Below, piece after piece: positions 35,872 to 51,041 of a stretch of DNA of 64,000 bases; position 1 is the first letter of the stretch, and each line of letters opens with the position of its first letter. The stretch comes from Rhodospirillales bacterium (GTDB lineage: Bacteria; Pseudomonadota; Alphaproteobacteria; TMED109), in NCBI GenBank assembly GCA_028824295.1, contig JAPPED010000002.1, forward strand, positions 1-64,000, written 5' to 3'. The translations under genes and the position numbers were made by a program. A model generated the notes under the pieces. The model did no database searches and was not told the origin of the DNA. It worked only from the letters and a program-made list of their open reading frames with translations.

Positions 35872-37278
35872 CTAGCGCCGGGTTGCGCCCGATGAGTCCC
35901 GCAGCAGCTGGCCGATGTCGTCGGCCCGCTGAAAGGCGGGCGAATCCGGGGGCAAGTGCTTGAGCGCTCGTTCGGCAAAACGCCGGGCATCGGCGGCGCG
36001 ACCACGGATGAGCGCGTGTTCGGCCGTCGCGAGCATGGCCAACCCTTCCTTCCCTGCGCGGCTGTGCGCAGCCGCAAGCAGGCGCCAAGCCTTGGCGTTC
36101 GCCGGTTCTAGGTCCACGACGCGTTCGAGTACGCCTATCACGTCCGAAAGACTTGAATCATCTCCGGTTTCCAGCTCCGCCTGAGCGAAGCCAACCAGGA
36201 TCAGGGCCGCCTCCGGCGCCAGTTCCGCGGCCTGCCGATAGCTCTCGGAAGCTTCCGAGACACGGCCGTTCTCGAGGAGGATCTGGCCGCGCAGCTCGTG
36301 GAAGTAATGGTCTTCGGGACTCTGGGCGATAAGCCCGTCAATCCTCGACAGCGCCGCGGTCAGGTCTGACTTTCGGTAGTACGCAATGGCGCGCGCATAC
36401 TGCCCGGCGACGCTGTCATCTCCGCCATAGCGCTGCAGCGTTTGTTCGGGCGGGTCGGTAAAGGCAACGATCTTGGCTACGAGGCGGTCGTAGGCGGCCA
36501 GTTCGGCGGCGCGTCCTGCAGACAGCGGCACCTGCTCATCACGCGTCCAATCCAGGATCTGCTGGATGCGCTCTTGTGTCAGTGGATGGGTACGAGCGTA
36601 CGGATCCAGGAGTTCCAGCGTTTGCTCCTTGGCTTGCAGCGCGATCAGCAACTCCACCAACGGGCGTGCTGGCCGACCCACCGCGGCCAGGTACTGAAGG
36701 GCCGCCAGGTCCGCCGCGTACTCCGCCGAGCGCGAATGCTGGAGGAACATCCTGCTGGCAATGTTCTCGCCCAGCGACATGCCGGCCGCCCCGAGCGAGA
36801 TGGCATCGTCCCCTCCGCCCAAGGCGCTTGCGCCGATTGTGATCAACGTGGTGGCCAGCCCGGCGATCGCCGCATTTTCCGCCGCCTCGCGGGTCCGCAC
36901 GAGATGTCCTGCGGCAATGTGCCCGGCCTCATGGGCAATCACGCCCACGAGGGCATCCGGGGTGCCGGCGCGGACGATCAGGCCCGTGTGAATGAAAATG
37001 TTCTGGCCGCCCGCCACGAACGCGTTGATCGTCGGTTCGTTCACGAAGTACAGCCGGACCGAGCTCGCCTCCAAGCCGGCAGCCGTAAACACGGGGTCCG
37101 CCCACGCGCGGACGTGCGTTTCGATTTCCGCATCCCGAATCAGTGGGATTCCTTGCGCCGACACTGCCGAAACAGTGGTCGCGACGACAACCCCTGCGGC
37201 CAAGAGCACCGCTCCCAACCGCTTGGCGCGCACGGACGCTGACGCCGATTTCCGTTTCCGACGCGGGCACAGCGTCAT
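35872..37278 (-). CDS. Periplasmic M48 metalloprotease with TPR tail (BepA-like)
   Basis: This 468-residue protein starts at ATG 37278, whose ATGA overlaps the stop of meaB; the frame continues into meaB but only as an alternative frame. A signal peptide (RLGAVLLAAGVVVATTVSAVSA) precedes the M48 domain with the zinc motif VIAHEAGHIAAGHL and the third ligand region SRSAEYAADLAALQYL. The C-terminal half holds tetratricopeptide repeats (AIAYYRKSDLTAALSRIDGLI, HELRGQILLENGRVSEASESYRQAAELAP). The architecture is that of BepA/YfgC, which degrades misassembled outer-membrane LptD and assists BAM. Translation coupling to meaB is odd for a periplasmic protease. Confidence 0.9.
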   Translation of the reverse strand: MTLCPRRKRKSASASVRAKRLGAVLLAAGVVVATTVSAVSAQGIPLIRDAEIETHVRAWADPVFTAAGLEASSVRLYFVNEPTINAFVAGGQNIFIHTGLIVRAGTPDALVGVIAHEAGHIAAGHLVRTREAAENAAIAGLATTLITIGASALGGGDDAISLGAAGMSLGENIASRMFLQHSRSAEYAADLAALQYLAAVGRPARPLVELLIALQAKEQTLELLDPYARTHPLTQERIQQILDWTRDEQVPLSAGRAAELAAYDRLVAKIVAFTDPPEQTLQRYGGDDSVAGQYARAIAYYRKSDLTAALSRIDGLIAQSPEDHYFHELRGQILLENGRVSEASESYRQAAELAPEAALILVGFAQAELETGDDSSLSDVIGVLERVVDLEPANAKAWRLLAAAHSRAGKEGLAMLATAEHALIRGRAADARRFAERALKHLPPDSPAFQRADDIGQLLRDSSGATRR

Positions 37279-38471
37279 CCTGCCGTCCCGGTCGCGATCC
37301 TTCCATCGCGCATCATGTCCAGCAGCGCGGCCGCAGCCGCAGCTGGAGCCATGCGACCCGAACGAACCTCGACTTCCCAGCGGGCCACGTCTGATCGGGG
37401 TTTCGCATGAGCTTCCCGGAAGGACTCCCGCAGCGCGAGATTCACATAGCTCCAAACGGCCTCCGCCGCCTGGCGGGCTCGGGCGTCGTCTCGGCTCCCG
37501 TCACTCGTGGTGACCGCCTCGAAGGCCTCGATGCGTTCCCAGGCGTGGCCGATGCCCATCCCCTCAACCGCCGAGCATGCGAACACCTCGGGCTTCCACG
37601 TCTCCGACGGCGGAGACATCAGCCGGAGTGCCCGCTTGTACTCGCCGACAGTGAGTTCCGCAGCCCGCTTCAAGTCCCCATCAGCCTTGTTGATCAGGAT
37701 GAAGTCCGCGATCTCCACGATCCCGCGCTTGATCCCCTGCAGGTTGTCGCCCGCCCCGGGCTGCACCAGCAGGGCAACGAGGTCAACCACCTCGCGGACG
37801 GCAAGCTCTGCCTGGCCAACCCCCATGGTCTCGATCAAGATGACGTCGAAGCCGGCCGCCTCGCACAGCGTGACCGATTCCCGTACGCCGCGGGCAATGC
37901 CTCCGTGCAGACCGCCCGACGGGCTCGGACGGATGTAGGCGCTGTCGGACCGGCCCAACCGCTCCATCCGGGTCTTGTCGCCGAGAATGGAGCCCCCGGA
38001 GATCGTGCTCGAGGGATCCACCGCAAGCACGGCTACGCGTTTCCCCCGGCCAATGGCATGAAGCCCGATCGCTTCAGAAAAGGTCGATTTTCCGACCCCG
38101 GGTGGGCCCGAGATGCCGATTCGGATGGCGGTACCGGCATTCGCGAAGACCGCCTGTACCAGTCCGGCTGCTGCCGACCGGTCACGTGGATGGCGGGATT
38201 CGACCAGGGTGATCCCGCGCGAGAGCGCCCGCCGATGGCCGCCAAGGATTTGCTCCGCCAGTTCCTGGATCGCTGGCGAAGCGGTGGCCGGCGCCGGCAA
38301 GGCCGAAGCCGCGTGGGGGCCAGCCTCGGCGGCGTCCGCCGTCGGGCCGGCAGGGTTGTCCGGTTCGGTATCGCGGGCGGGAAGGCTGCGTGCGTAGATG
38401 ATCCACCCGATAACGCACGCCAATGCCAACGGCGCGAATATGGCGGCTACCAGGTACAGGTCGCTAGCCAC
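37275..38471 (-). CDS. meaB: Methylmalonyl-CoA mutase GTPase chaperone MeaB with N-terminal membrane helix
   Basis: The G3E GTPase core is clear: Walker A GISGPPGVGKST (residues 119-130), VDPSSTISGGSILGDKTRM, SPSGGLHGG, IETMGVGQAE and ILINKADGD. MeaB protects and reloads methylmalonyl-CoA mutase with cobalamin. This protein of 398 residues has an extra N terminus: a hydrophobic helix at about residues 5-27 (LYLVAAIFAPLALACVIGWI) and an Ala/Pro-rich linker to about 66. The start is a GTG 13 bases after the mutase stop, behind GAGAGGCGG, and no later start would leave a complete family N terminus. Its stop overlaps the M48 start. Membrane attachment is inference from the helix. Confidence 0.9.
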   Translation of the reverse strand: MASDLYLVAAIFAPLALACVIGWIIYARSLPARDTEPDNPAGPTADAAEAGPHAASALPAPATASPAIQELAEQILGGHRRALSRGITLVESRHPRDRSAAAGLVQAVFANAGTAIRIGISGPPGVGKSTFSEAIGLHAIGRGKRVAVLAVDPSSTISGGSILGDKTRMERLGRSDSAYIRPSPSGGLHGGIARGVRESVTLCEAAGFDVILIETMGVGQAELAVREVVDLVALLVQPGAGDNLQGIKRGIVEIADFILINKADGDLKRAAELTVGEYKRALRLMSPPSETWKPEVFACSAVEGMGIGHAWERIEAFEAVTTSDGSRDDARARQAAEAVWSYVNLALRESFREAHAKPRSDVARWEVEVRSGRMAPAAAAAALLDMMRDGRIATGTAG

Positions 38472-38484
38472 CCCCGCCCGCCTC

Positions 38485-40635
<2,151 letters not shown>

Positions 40636-44868: not shown

Positions 44869-44873
44869 CGTCA

Positions 44874-45002
44874 ATGCATCCTGAGGGGTTGACGCACCCC
44901 ACCAACCTGCAGCCCGTGCAAGGTGGTTTCCCGCTGGGGAGATGCGGCCGGACGGCAATCACGGGCGTCAGCCTCCTCAGCGCCGCGCCGAAGGAGGTTC
45001 TC
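44874..45002 (+). ncRNA. Candidate riboswitch-like leader of metF-metH
   Basis: From the predicted RNA start, GCATC (44876-44880) pairs with GATGC (44941-44945) to close a domain. Inside it are hairpin A, GGGGT/ACCCC (44885-44889 with 44896-44900), and directly next to it hairpin B (44901-44927), ten pairs with two single bulged A residues and loop GCCCG. The hairpin-B end GCCCGT (44912-44917) is complementary to ACGGGC (44961-44966), a possible pseudoknot. Then CCTCCT (44972-44977) pairs with AGGAGG (44992-44997), the strong ribosome binding site of the 59-codon ORF at 45003. The layout is that of a translation-controlling riboswitch. It does not fit SAM-I, SAM-II, SAM-IV, SAH, ZTP or B12 consensus as I recall them. 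Confidence 0.5.
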
Positions 45003-45182
45003 ATGTCGCACGGCTCCGGGCCCGCTTCTCCGGGCAAGCGCACGGTTTCGCCGTGCCGGAGCGGCTTGCCCGCCACGTCGCCATCAGCACCAAGCCATTG
45101 CGCCGGCCTTGGGCAGCCGCCGCCCGTGCACGGCCTCCCGACGGGTTCCACCGCATCGGAACCACTGTCTGGAACGCGATGA
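45003..45182 (+). CDS. Short upstream ORF coupled to metF
   Basis: This 59-codon ORF starts at an ATG five bases after AAGGAGG, the best ribosome binding site in the neighbourhood. Its TGA overlaps the metF ATG as ATGA. The product (MSHGSGPASPGKRTVSPCRS and so on) is rich in Ser, Pro and Gly, has no signal or membrane helix, and resembles no family I know. The metF ATG has only a weak GGA of its own, so ribosomes terminating here may be what starts metF. It may therefore act as a regulatory coupling ORF rather than make a useful protein. Reality as a stable protein is unproven. Confidence 0.45.
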   Translation: MSHGSGPASPGKRTVSPCRSGLPATSPSAPSHCAGLGQPPPVHGLPTGSTASEPLSGTR

Positions 45183-46066
45183 CACGACCCTCCATCAGCT
45201 TTGAGTTTTTCCCGCCCGCGGATGCGGGCGCCGTGCAACGCCTGCAGCGGGTCATGAATCTGCTGGTACAGCTCGGACCCAACTTCTTTTCGGTCACCTA
45301 TGGTGCCGACGGCTCCACCCGCTCGCGCACCGAAGGACTCGTGTGCTGGATCCGCCAGGAGCTTCCCGTGCCCCCGGCCGCTCATCTGACCTGTGTCGGG
45401 TCAACCCGGTCCCAGACGAACGCCCTGGCGCGGCGCTGGTGGTCGCTGGGAATACGGCACATCGTGGCACTTCGCGGCGACCCGCCGAAAGGCGCCGATC
45501 AGTATCGCCCGGAACCGGACGGCTACCGCAATGCGGCCGATCTCGTGCGCGGCATCCGCGCTGCCGCCGATTTCGAGATTTCGGTGGCAGGCTATCCGGA
45601 GCCGCACCCCGAATCTCCGTCACCGGCAGCGGATATCGAAAACCTGAAGGCCAAGGTGGATGCCGGTGCCGATCGGGTGCTCACGCAGTACTTTTTCGAC
45701 AATGCCTGTTTCCTACGCTTCCGCGACCGATGCCGCGCCGCTGGCATTACGGCGCCGATCGTGCCCGGGATACTCCCGGTCACCGATTTCGCGCGGGTCG
45801 CGGAATTCAGCCGCCGCTGCGGCGTGACGATCCCGTCGCACATGGCCGCGACCTTCGAGCCCCTGGACACCGACGCCCGTACCCGCGAAATGATCGCCGC
45901 AGGCGCTGCGGTGTCGCAATGCGAAGATCTCCGGCGCGAGGGGGTGAACGCGTTTCACTTCTATACGTTGAACCGTGCTCGGCTCAGCTACGCGATCTGC
46001 TGGTGGCTGGGCCTCCGTGGACGCATTGAGGCGTCGTCGGCCGGGGCGGCGGACCCGGACGCATGA
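45179..46066 (+). CDS. metF: 5,10-methylenetetrahydrofolate reductase
   Basis: This 295-residue flavoprotein makes 5-methyl-THF for MetH. It starts [17 protein letters not shown], the standard MetF opening with the catalytic Glu in [30 protein letters not shown] and [13 protein letters not shown] are family signatures, as are [13 protein letters not shown] and [10 protein letters not shown]. The frame is open upstream to 44942, but there is no start behind the strong ribosome binding site in this frame, and homologues begin at MTRPS. Its stop overlaps the metH ATG by four bases. Confidence 0.95.
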
Positions 46067-49000
46067 GCGGACCGGCAGCGGACATGGCCGTCCGGCGGCG
46101 AGAGCTGGAGCGCCGTCTCCGCGAACGGATTCTCCTGCTGGACGGCGCGTTCGGCACCATGTTGCAGGGGCGAGGTCTCGAGGAGCGTGACTACCGAGGG
46201 GGGCGCTTCCGGGAGCATCCGCACGACCTTGCGGGCAACTTCGACATCCTCTGCCTGACTCGCCCGGACGTGGTGGCGGATGTTCACGACGCCTATCTCG
46301 GCGTGGGCGCCGACATCATCGAGACCTGCACCTTCAGCGCGACGTCCATCGCCCAGGCGGATTACGGAACCGGGGATCTGGCGCGGGAGATCAACTACGC
46401 TGCGGCCCGCATCGCCCGGGAGGTCGCCGCCCGCCACGAAGCCGACGGTCGGTCACGCTTTGTGGCCGGGGCCCTGGGCCCGACCAATCGGACAGCGTCA
46501 GTTTCGCCGGTAGTCGAAGACCCGGCCGCGCGCAACGTCACCTACGACGAGCTCCGCCGGGCGTATCGGACGGCCGCGCTCGGCTTGATCGAGGGCGGCG
46601 CGGACCTGCTGCTGGTCGAGACGGTGTTTGACACCCTGAACGGCAAGGCGGCGCTGCACGCCATTGCCGAGGCGTTTGATCGCGCCGGGGTTCGACTGCC
46701 AGTCATGATCTCCGGCACGATTACGGACGCGTCGGGGCGGACGCTGACCGGCCAGACACCGGCCGCCTTCTGGGCGTCCGTGCGCCATGCCCGGCCGTTT
46801 TCGATCGGGTTCAACTGCGCCCTGGGGGCGCGGGAGCTTCGCCCGCATCTCCAGGAGATCGCCCATCTCGCTGACCGGCCAGTGTGTCTCTATCCGAACG
46901 CGGGGCTCCCCAACGCCTTCGGCGGCTACGACGAAACGCCGTCGAGCATGGCCGCCGACCTCGGCGAGTTCGCCGAGAACGGGTGGCTGAACATCGCGGG
47001 CGGTTGCTGCGGGACCACGCCCGAGCACATCGCCGCCATCCGGGATGCCGTCGTGGACAAGGCTCCGCGAACGGCCGCGCCGCCGATGTCGTACTGCTTC
47101 CTGTCCGGACTGGAGCCGCTCGCCATCAACCAGGACACCGGCTTCGTCAATGTCGGCGAACGCACCAACGTCACGGGGTCGGCCCGGTTTCGGCGACTCG
47201 TGCTGGACGGGGATTTCGACGCGGCGCTGGAGGTGGCCCGCGACCAGGTCCGGAACGGCGCCCAGATCATCGACATCAATCTCGACGAAGCGATGCTCGA
47301 TGTGGAAGCGGCGATGGCGCGGTTCCTCCGCCTGATTGCCGCGGAGCCGGAAATCAGCCGGGTGCCGCTGATGCTGGATTCCTCGAGCTGGTCCGTGCTG
47401 GAGGCGGGCCTCAGGAACGTCCAGGGCAAGCCCATCGTGAACTCGATCAGCCTCAAGGAAGGCGAGGCGGCGTTCCGCCAGCAGGCGGAAGCGGTCCTGC
47501 GACACGGCGCTGCCGTCGTGGTGATGGCCTTCGACGAACAGGGACAGGCGGAGACGGCCGAACGAAAGGTCGAGATCTGCGGGCGCGCCTATCGGATTCT
47601 GGTGGACGAGGTTGGCTTCCCCCCTGAGGACATCATCTTCGATCCCAACATCTTTGCCGTGGCCACCGGCATCGAGGAGCACGACGACTACGCGGTCGCG
47701 TTTCTCGAGGCCTGCCGTCAGATCAAGGCAACGCTGCCCGGAAGTCTCGTGTCCGGGGGTCTCTCCAACCTCTCCTTTTCGTTCCGCGGCAACGACAGCG
47801 TCCGCAAGGCCATGCACTCGGTGTTCCTCTACCACGCCATCGCGGCCGGGCTCGACATGGCGATCGTCAACGCAGGGCAGCTCGCCGTCTACGCGGACCT
47901 TCCCGCGACCCTCCGGGAAACGGTGGAGGACGTCGTCCTCAACCGACAGCCGGACGCCGCGCAGCGTCTGCTCGAGATAGCCGCCGGACCAGTCCGTGCC
48001 CTCGAGACCGAAGACGAAACGGACCCCGAATGGCGCCGCAAACCAGTCGGTGAGCGGCTGATGCATTCCCTGGTCGAGGGAATCACCGAGTTCATCATCG
48101 AGGACGTCGAGATTGCCCGCCAACAAGTGGAGGATCCGCTCGACGTCATCGAGGGCCCGTTGATGGACGGCATGAGCCGGGTGGGCGACCTGTTCGGTTC
48201 GGGGCAGATGTTCCTGCCCCAGGTCGTCAAGAGCGCCCGAGTCATGAAACAGGCAGTGAACCACCTGGAGCCGTTCATCGAAGCGCGCAAGCAGGGGCGG
48301 GCCCGCGCCCGGGGTCGCATCGTGCTTGCCACCGTGAAAGGTGACGTGCACGACATCGGCAAGAACATCGTCGGCGTCGTGCTCGGGTGCAACCACTTCG
48401 AGGTCATCGACCTTGGCGTCATGGTTCCGTCTGCGGCCATCCTGGAGGCCGCCCGTGATCACGACGCCGACATGGTGGGCCTGTCAGGGCTGATCACGCC
48501 GTCGCTCCGCGAAATGTGCTTGGTCGCCGGCGAGATGGAGCGCGAAGCGCTCCGCATCCCGCTCCTGATCGGCGGTGCAACCACCTCCAAGGCCCATACC
48601 GCGGTGAAGATTGCGCCAGAGTACTCCGGCCCGGTCGTGCATGTGGCCGATGCGTCGCGCGCCGTAACCGTCGCCTCCAGCCTCGCCAGCAGCACGCGCG
48701 CCCCGACGCTGGTCGCTGAAGTGCAGGAGGAATATGGAAGGATCCGCGAGCAGCACGGGGATCGACGCAGACGTTCCAACCGCTTACCGCTCGAGGAGGC
48801 GCGGAAGCGACGAATCCACATTGACTGGAGCAACGGGATCCCGCCTCCGCCCCGCGACACCGATCTGCTCCAATTCGCGGCCTACGACCTCGATGAACTC
48901 GCGGAGCAAATCGACTGGACACCGTTCTTCCACACTTGGGAACTCACGGGGAAGTGGCCCCAGATTCTCGATGACCCGGTGGTCGGCGAGGCCGCTCAGG

Positions 49001-49758
49001 GCCTCTTCCGGGATGCCCAGGCCATGTTGCGGCGGATCGTGGACGAGCGGTTGCTGGAAGCTCGGGGGGTCACCCGGATGTTTCCGGCCAACGCCGTCGA
49101 TGACGACGTCGAGGTGTACGCCGACGCCACCCGCTCGGATGTGCGGGCGCGGTTCGTCTTCCTTCGCCAGCAGATGGACAAGTCCGCCGGTCGTCCCAAC
49201 CTTTGTCTGGCCGACTTCGTTGCCCCCAAGACAACGGGGCTGGCCGACCACATCGGCGCGTTCGCCGTCACTGCCGGCATCGGCATGGACGCCGCGAGGG
49301 AAGGCCAGGATGCGTACGCCGAGATCCTTCTCCAGTCGCTGGCCGACCGCCTTGCCGAAGCCTTCGCGGAACGCATGCACGAAAGAGTGCGGAAGGAGTT
49401 CTGGGGTTACGCGCCCGACGAGGACCTGGACAACGAGGCTTTGATCGACGAGGCGTATCAGGGCATCCGTCCGGCTCCGGGATATCCGGCCTGTCCCGAT
49501 CACAGCGAGAAGCGCACGCTGTTTCAACTGTTGGAGGCCGACACCCGCGCCGGCATCACCCTCACCAACAGTTTCGCGATGATGCCGGCCGCGTCGGTCT
49601 CCGGTCTCTACTTCGCCCATCCGGAGACGAGATACTTCGGTGTCGGCCGGATCGGCCGAGACCAGGTGGAGGACTACGCCCGGCGCAAGGGATTCGCCGT
49701 GGCGGAAGCAGAGGAAACGCTTGCCGCCAATCTCGGGTACGCCCCGGAGGACTGTTAG
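46063..49758 (+). CDS. metH: Cobalamin-dependent methionine synthase
   Basis: This 1231-residue full-length MetH transfers a methyl group from methyl-THF to homocysteine. Domains in order: homocysteine-binding barrel with zinc cysteines near residue 251 and C315-C316 ([12 protein letters not shown]); pterin barrel ([34 protein letters not shown]); cap and B12 domain with cobalt ligand H763 in [18 protein letters not shown]; and the reactivation domain ending in [27 protein letters not shown]. Many Alphaproteobacteria have a split MetH; here all modules are on one chain. ATGA overlap couples it to metF. It shares cobalamin demand with the mutase at 38.5 kb. Confidence 0.97.
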
Positions 49759-50267: not shown

Positions 50268-51041
50268 ATGGCAACCGACAGCAGCGCGAGTGGTGACGCG
50301 GCCCACGGGCCGCTCGAACAGTTCGAGATCGTCGCCCTCGAACCCATTCAGATCGGGGGGCTCGACCTCTCGTTCACCAATTCAGCTCTCTGGATGCTGA
50401 TCGCAGTCGCCACCATTGCTGTGGTGTTCGCCGGCGGCATGCGGCGGCGCGCGATTATTCCCGGGCGATGGCAAGCGGCGGTGGAACTGACCTACCGGTT
50501 CGTGGCCAACATGCTGCAGGACAACGTCGGTCCGCAGGGGGCCCGTTACTTCCCCTTTATTTTCAGCCTGTTCCTGTTCATCCTTTTCGGAAATCTCCTG
50601 GGGATGGTGCCCTACAGCTTTACGTACACCAGCCACATTGCCGTAACGTTCGCCATGGCCGCCGTGGTATTCGTCGGCGTGACCGTCATTGGGCTGGTGC
50701 GACACGGAGTCCGGTTCCTGTCAATCTTCGTCCCGTCCGGTGTCCCGATAGCGCTCATCCCGTTGATGGTGCCGATCGAGATCATCAGCTATTTCGTCCG
50801 ACCGGTCAGCCTTTCTCTGCGCCTGTTCGCCAACATGATGGCCGGGCATACGATGCTCAAAGTCTTTGGGGGCTTTGTCGGCCTCCTGCTGTCCGCCGGC
50901 CTCGGGCTCCTAGCGCCGGTGTCCATCATCCTGATCGTGATCCTGACCGGCTTTGAGTTGCTGATAGCGGCCATTCAGGCCTATGTCTTCGCGGTCCTGA
51001 GCTGCCTGTACCTGAGTGACGCGCTGGATCTTCACCACTAA
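50268..51041 (+). CDS. atpB: ATP synthase F0 subunit a
   Basis: This 257-residue polytopic protein forms the proton half-channels. The essential arginine lies in [62 protein letters not shown] and [28 protein letters not shown] are standard subunit-a helices. Length and helix pattern are typical of Alphaproteobacteria. Confidence 0.96.

Follow-up and report, generated by a model that had tools for sequence, protein, structure and literature searches.

MeaB is a GTPase chaperone that puts adenosylcobalamin into methylmalonyl-CoA mutase and takes out damaged cofactor; members of the MeaB/MMAA family are homodimers of low GTPase activity, which the mutase stimulates. Human MMAA is mitochondrial and has extra sequence at its N-terminus, a matrix-targeting leader and not an anchor. 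As far as the accessible text of the papers examined goes, MeaB/MMAA systems have been studied as soluble proteins: M. extorquens MeaB is a homodimer that meets the mutase in solution (PMC10356863, PMC9974510), and human MMAA (PDB 2WWW, 8GJU), which is of the same GTPase family as the protein described below and gives a fold match to it, delivers B12 to MMUT (PMC10356863). According to the accessible parts of these sources, the MeaB dimer docks on the mutase at its B12 domain, one of the two protomers rotates by ~180 degrees, the nucleotide site is completed by switch III, and the mutase is held open so that adenosylcobalamin can enter (PMC9974510, PMC10481361, PMC10356863). In IcmF, an isobutyryl-CoA mutase fused to a G-protein, chaperone and mutase are likewise kept together, there covalently (accessible text of PMC10481361). 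CooC of Rhodospirillum rubrum, the nickel-inserting P-loop NTPase of CO dehydrogenase, is a metallochaperone called membrane-associated in a reference title of PMC9164220, the source being accessible in part; it differs from MeaB in NTPase family, metal and client, and is apparently a precedent, at least one, for a metallochaperone NTPase at the membrane. In the accessible text of two reviews that mention MeaB, the term membrane-associated refers to CooC (in a reference title) and to CoaR. No membrane-anchored MeaB was found among the listed titles and beginnings of abstracts, with preprints and most subscription papers lying outside the coverage.

The window (the whole stretch of DNA analysed, 64,000 nucleotides) carries the following genes around meaB.

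35872..37278, minus strand: M48 peptidase with TPR, the next gene; signal peptide by eye; its ATG overlaps the meaB stop in the window.
37275..38471, minus strand: meaB, 398 aa; GTG start at 38471 (GTG 38471-38469), stop 37277-37275.
38472..38484, minus strand: 13-base gap GAGGCGGGCGGGG, within which the larger part of the GA-rich meaB ribosome-binding site falls (sequence; anti-SD pairing).
38485..40635, minus strand: methylmalonyl-CoA mutase, 716 aa, the MeaB client, directly upstream; NF006944 1216.6 bits (cut-off 876), PF01642 and PF02310.

The minus strand from 38471 to 37275 is a single, GTG-initiated open frame of 398 codons; the coordinates given in the initial annotation were right, and the strand, which it left unstated, is minus. 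The mutase stop (TGA, 38487-38485) lies 13 bases before the meaB GTG, as was claimed there too; the quoted GAGAGGCGG starts inside this TGA. Unlike IcmF, which is fused to its mutase and not membrane-bound, the two window genes are separate, the mutase ending in a stop codon 13 bases ahead of meaB; the window MeaB scored 91.1 bits against NF045497 (cut-off 1500). Seven genomes of the genus, an uncultured alphaproteobacterial one, were compared, the window's own included (locus L031 is the same locus as L003). Mutase and meaB are in neighbouring places in all seven; a single MeaB and a single mutase are present in six, two of each in the seventh (G004), and the upstream mutase is the only PF01642 match in 6/7. 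The upstream mutase is without a hydrophobic N-terminus. In G004 (L211, G004:C84) a MeaB-like gene in which no helix is seen by eye stands before a second, divergent mutase; transfer or contamination is a possible origin of this pair. The ATG/stop overlap of the M48 gene and meaB is not conserved because the frame is offset in L003, and coupling of the two genes through a conserved overlap was rejected.

The MeaB product was compared with family models and solved structures, and the following core features were located.

37308..38270, minus strand: MeaB core, residues 68-388 (Pfam match 83-354), by family match, alignment and fold.
38082..38108, minus strand: P-loop GPPGVGKST, residues 122-130 (K128, S129); K128 and S129 invariant in a 19-sequence alignment, roles from the accessible text of PMC10481361.
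37728..37748, minus strand: switch III residues D242, Q245, K248 (M. extorquens MeaB D182, Q185, K188); invariant in the same alignment, roles from the same source.

PF03308 matched residues 83-354 (E 8.9e-94, score 313.9, cut-off 23.1), NF006958 gave 409 bits (cut-off 329) and TIGR00750 295.4 (cut-off 240.75); the family models start at residue 65, 78 or 83, so that family membership is unaffected by the helix described below. A MeaB usually has no membrane segment, but the lack of one does not belong to these models. All nine nucleotide and switch residues (K128, S129, D152, D165, R168, E214, D242, Q245, K248) are present and invariant among the 19 aligned sequences; at a constant offset of 60, taken from the 8DPB alignment, they correspond to K68, S69, D92, D105, R108, E154, D182, Q185 and K188 of the P-loop and switches I-III of M. 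extorquens MeaB (accessible text of PMC10481361). AlphaFold2 was run on the 19-sequence alignment; the model has a helix at residues 2-28 of low confidence (pLDDT block means over residues 1-30: 47, 52, 47), an unstructured linker and a core with the MeaB fold. Foldseek of this core gave 4JYB (E 4.0e-30, 48% identity, TM 0.86 of target) and 8DPB (TM 0.91 of target). M. extorquens MeaB (PDB 2QM7, 4JYB, 8DPB) has the same core fold and the same P-loop and switch I-III residues; in its solved chains (329 and 337 residues) the alignment starts at residue 5, opposite residue 65 of the window MeaB, and the chains are therefore without the helix and the long linker. By family, sequence and predicted fold the product of 38471-37275 is a true MeaB.

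Ahead of the core three further features were located.

38397..38453, minus strand: predicted transmembrane helix, residues 7-25; Kyte-Doolittle (KD) 2.59; 7/7 in the genus; within the low-pLDDT AlphaFold2 helix 2-28.
38373..38396, minus strand: Arg-containing stretch YARSLPAR, residues 26-33 (alignment), without Lys/Arg ahead of the helix; positive-inside, predicted N-out/C-in.
38271..38381, minus strand: Ala/Pro-rich linker, residues 31-67, fast evolving and unstructured in the model.

KD means were taken in 19-residue windows. The best window of MeaB is residues 7-25, LVAAIFAPLALACVIGWII, with a mean of 2.59; it belongs to the one segment of the whole protein that reaches 1.8 or more, and past residue 40 the best window is 1.44. 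Pro14 lies inside the helix. Arg 28 and Arg 33 follow the helix and no Lys or Arg precedes it; two or three Arg stand within the eight residues past the helix in 7/7 congeners. One hydrophobic segment at the N-terminus, followed by positive charge, is the arrangement of a bitopic signal anchor, and the positive-inside rule is the basis on which the topology is called N-out/C-in. The whole window, any frame counted, has 3,344 start codons with 29 open codons behind them, of which two reach 2.46, the genus minimum: the MeaB GTG and an internal ATG at 50853, which falls within 50268-51041, an ORF with six hydrophobic segments. The linker holds 13 Ala and 8 Pro in its 37 residues. The initial annotation, which had placed a hydrophobic helix near the N-terminus and an Ala/Pro-rich linker between it and the conserved core, thus described the protein correctly; the helix recurs in 7/7 congeners and the core is intact.

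Outside the genus 184 MeaB loci were examined, 105 from the same class and 79 from many phyla; the sample leans towards best matches, drawing on a search with matches in 201 of 385 genomes from which the loci listed and 59 additional stretches were read, one genome may count twice, and the open frame of L172 reaches the edge of its stretch. A convincing equivalent of the N-terminal helix was found in 0 of these 184. A KD mean of 1.6 before the core is reached at three loci, L136, L098 and L087. They were rejected as anchored MeaB: L173, a congener of L136, is without the segment and has its only start codon 8 residues ahead of the core, and in L098 and L087 (Flavobacterium) the hydrophobic stretch is reachable through TTG codons only. 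No MeaB match was obtained in 21 genomes that share the family but belong to other genera (G007-G027; many incomplete); these genomes are small, 0.8-1.7 Mb vs 2.5-3.8 Mb in the window's genus. A search of the seven genomes of this genus with the first 50 residues recovered MeaB in each and, besides, five weak matches (E 0.0056 to 0.43), and gave no close second copy of the helix.

Within the genus the GTG start, helix and linker are present in 7/7 genomes, and the helix has a KD mean of 2.46-2.75. Among the seven congeners the helix has a mean pairwise identity of 0.81 and a median dN/dS (21 pairs, NG86) of 0.305; the corresponding values are 0.53 and 0.430 for the linker and 0.92 and 0.099 for the core, so that dN/dS in the helix is ~3x that in the core. 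Neutral substitution was simulated on the 29 helix residues, and simulated sequences with a stop were left out. In five cross-clade pairs, which are non-independent, 20-22 of 29 helix residues are identical vs 15.1-17.2 in the neutral simulation (P 0.003-0.012), and hydrophobicity is 2.72-2.75 vs a simulated drop to ~1.6-1.7 (P 0.004-0.010). Identity within clades, a weak test with three pairs, was significant in one (P 0.003) and not in two (P 0.13 and 0.76). These data point to moderate constraint on the helix at the protein level, stronger than that on the linker; the conservation is shallow because the helix is known from one genus only (7 genomes).

The helix might be translated and yet give no lasting anchor, as a neutral extension or by packing against the protein itself or the mutase in place of the membrane. 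Its restriction to one genus, the low AlphaFold2 confidence and a constraint that is moderate, and not significant in two of the three within-clade pairs, are in favour of such a reading; against it, a KD mean of 2.46-2.75 is kept in 7/7 genomes in spite of 7-9 differences over 29 residues between cross-clade pairs, the neutral simulation expects a fall to ~1.6-1.7, and the Arg residues are positioned as for an N-out/C-in anchor. A helix with no anchoring role is thus considered unlikely.

The start site was examined at GTG1 and at one later codon.

38298..38300, minus strand: TTG codon 58, invariant in 7/7 congeners within the fast-evolving linker; weighed and disfavoured as an internal start.

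By alignment, no later ATG or GTG ahead of the core is common to 7/7 congeners, and TTG58 is the sole later start codon before the core that is common to all. Translation from it would give a soluble MeaB of 341 residues, either as the sole product or as a second isoform beside the anchored form, and such a product would have the usual MeaB length. Among 30 all-Leu alignment columns (7 congeners), column 60, which corresponds to codon 58, is the only one with TTG throughout, and it lies inside the fast-evolving linker; since TTG makes up 36 of 228 Leu codons and one codon is kept throughout in 4 of the 30 columns, it would not be surprising to meet some column with TTG in every congener, and the invariance of TTG58 is probably due to chance. 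Anti-SD pairing at GTG1 is -11.2 to -11.7 kcal/mol in six of the seven congeners, which 0.5-1.3% of in-gene codons match, and -7.3 kcal/mol in L003, where 12% are equal or better; at TTG58 it is -1.7 to -6.8 kcal/mol, and 17-90% of in-gene codons are equal or better. In 6/7 congeners the folding around TTG58 exceeds that of 86-97% of in-gene sites; local folding at GTG1 is itself fairly strong (-21.1 to -26.8), and the ranking against in-gene sites covers TTG58 alone. Two values speak for the later codon, the pairing in L003 (-6.8, close to -7.3 at GTG1) and the folding in L006 (-21.1, weaker than -26.1 at GTG1). The Shine-Dalgarno of GTG1 in the top ~1% in six congeners and the top 12% in L003, the unremarkable pairing and strong folding of TTG58 in 6/7 and the protein-level constraint on the helix upstream speak against it. 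On codon conservation, Shine-Dalgarno pairing and local folding TTG58 was rejected as the favoured start, and a role for it is quite unlikely. A cleaved Sec signal peptide with export of MeaB, which the hydrophobic N-terminus would suit, is very improbable, for the positive n-region is missing, the Arg residues are on the wrong side for export, the active-site residues are kept, and the client, GTP and adenosylcobalamin are cytosolic.

The initial annotation had named two findings against the anchor, a later start conserved in homologues and poor conservation of the helix. Neither was made: the codon common to 7/7 is TTG58, with unremarkable pairing and, in 6/7, strongly folded surroundings, and the helix is in all seven and better kept than the linker; a tether on MeaB therefore has support as a prediction. 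The preferred reading is that the locus probably encodes a form of MeaB with an N-out/C-in signal anchor; this protein, the sole MeaB match in 6/7 genomes, would be tethered to the inner membrane, and the mutase through it. On this reading the protein is a known one in variant form, and no new type of system is implied. We infer from the sequence its membrane insertion, topology, dimerisation and recruitment of mutase, as follows. An N-tail of ~6 residues would be in the periplasm, followed by a single membrane-spanning helix 7-25; the Arg residues after it would be on the cytoplasmic side, and the flexible linker of 37 residues would free the dimeric GTPase core in the cytosol. Each protomer of the dimer would contribute one helix to the inner membrane and one loose linker, with cores free to turn; the linkers may be long and loose enough for the ~180-degree rotation of a protomer. 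By way of MeaB, the client mutase would also be brought to the inner membrane.

Genes of B12 supply were searched in the same seven genomes. In the window's genome a cluster (L220, G000:C13:12000-31000) comprises a TonB receptor, periplasmic binding protein, FecCD permease, BtuR, CobS, CbiB and CobU; the BtuR and TonB receptor genes have a cobalamin riboswitch (128.8 bits) between them. The genomes are 92-98% complete, so that missing genes may be assembly gaps in the following counts: CobS in 4/7, BtuR in the same 4/7, PduO-type adenosyltransferase above cut-off in 6/7, FecCD permease, a family that is not B12-specific, in 7/7, and CobN match in 0/7. From the CobN result the cells look like corrinoid salvagers. 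The PduO-type adenosyltransferase, viewed by eye in one genome, is without a hydrophobic N-terminus. Elsewhere in the window a SAM-I/IV riboswitch (44871-44972, plus strand, 57.1 bits, cut-off 41.1) is at the start of a methylenetetrahydrofolate reductase ORF (44942-46066), and since it overlaps the called start, the true start is probably later; the ORF is followed by a B12-dependent methionine synthase (46063-49758).

The initial annotation had also suggested that a tethered form would place cofactor loading at the membrane, perhaps near a cobalamin-processing partner. The tether stands as a prediction, and the partner is without direct support: candidates are the FecCD/BtuC-type permease, CobS and CbiB, but CobS and BtuR are in 4/7 only, the genes flanking meaB (mutase, M48 peptidase) are not B12 membrane proteins, and among CobS, BtuR, PduO-type adenosyltransferase, CobN and FecCD no clearly B12-specific membrane partner is common to all seven genomes with the anchor. 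Corrinoid import and the CbiB step are membrane events. So is the CobS step, by the accessible text of PMC8092220. Loading of the cofactor at the membrane would be economical, because import and the CobS and CbiB steps sit there, and it is speculative that the anchor serves to meet cofactor as it reaches the membrane. In a tethered loading station, a doubtful extension of the anchor reading, the anchored MeaB dimer would hold the mutase at the inner membrane and take arriving adenosylcobalamin from a BtuC-type importer via adenosyltransferase or from CobS; scarce salvaged cobalamin would be channelled and never released to the cytosol.

The route of adenosylcobalamin from its source to the enzyme is still being worked out. 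If the anchor reading is true, a membrane-fixed MeaB, the only MeaB match in 6/7 genomes, would demonstrate that cofactor loading can be confined to one place in the cell; the genus would offer a natural system for asking if delivery depends on how far away the importer or CobS is, and would test the tolerance of the 180-degree rotation of the MeaB dimer for a tether.
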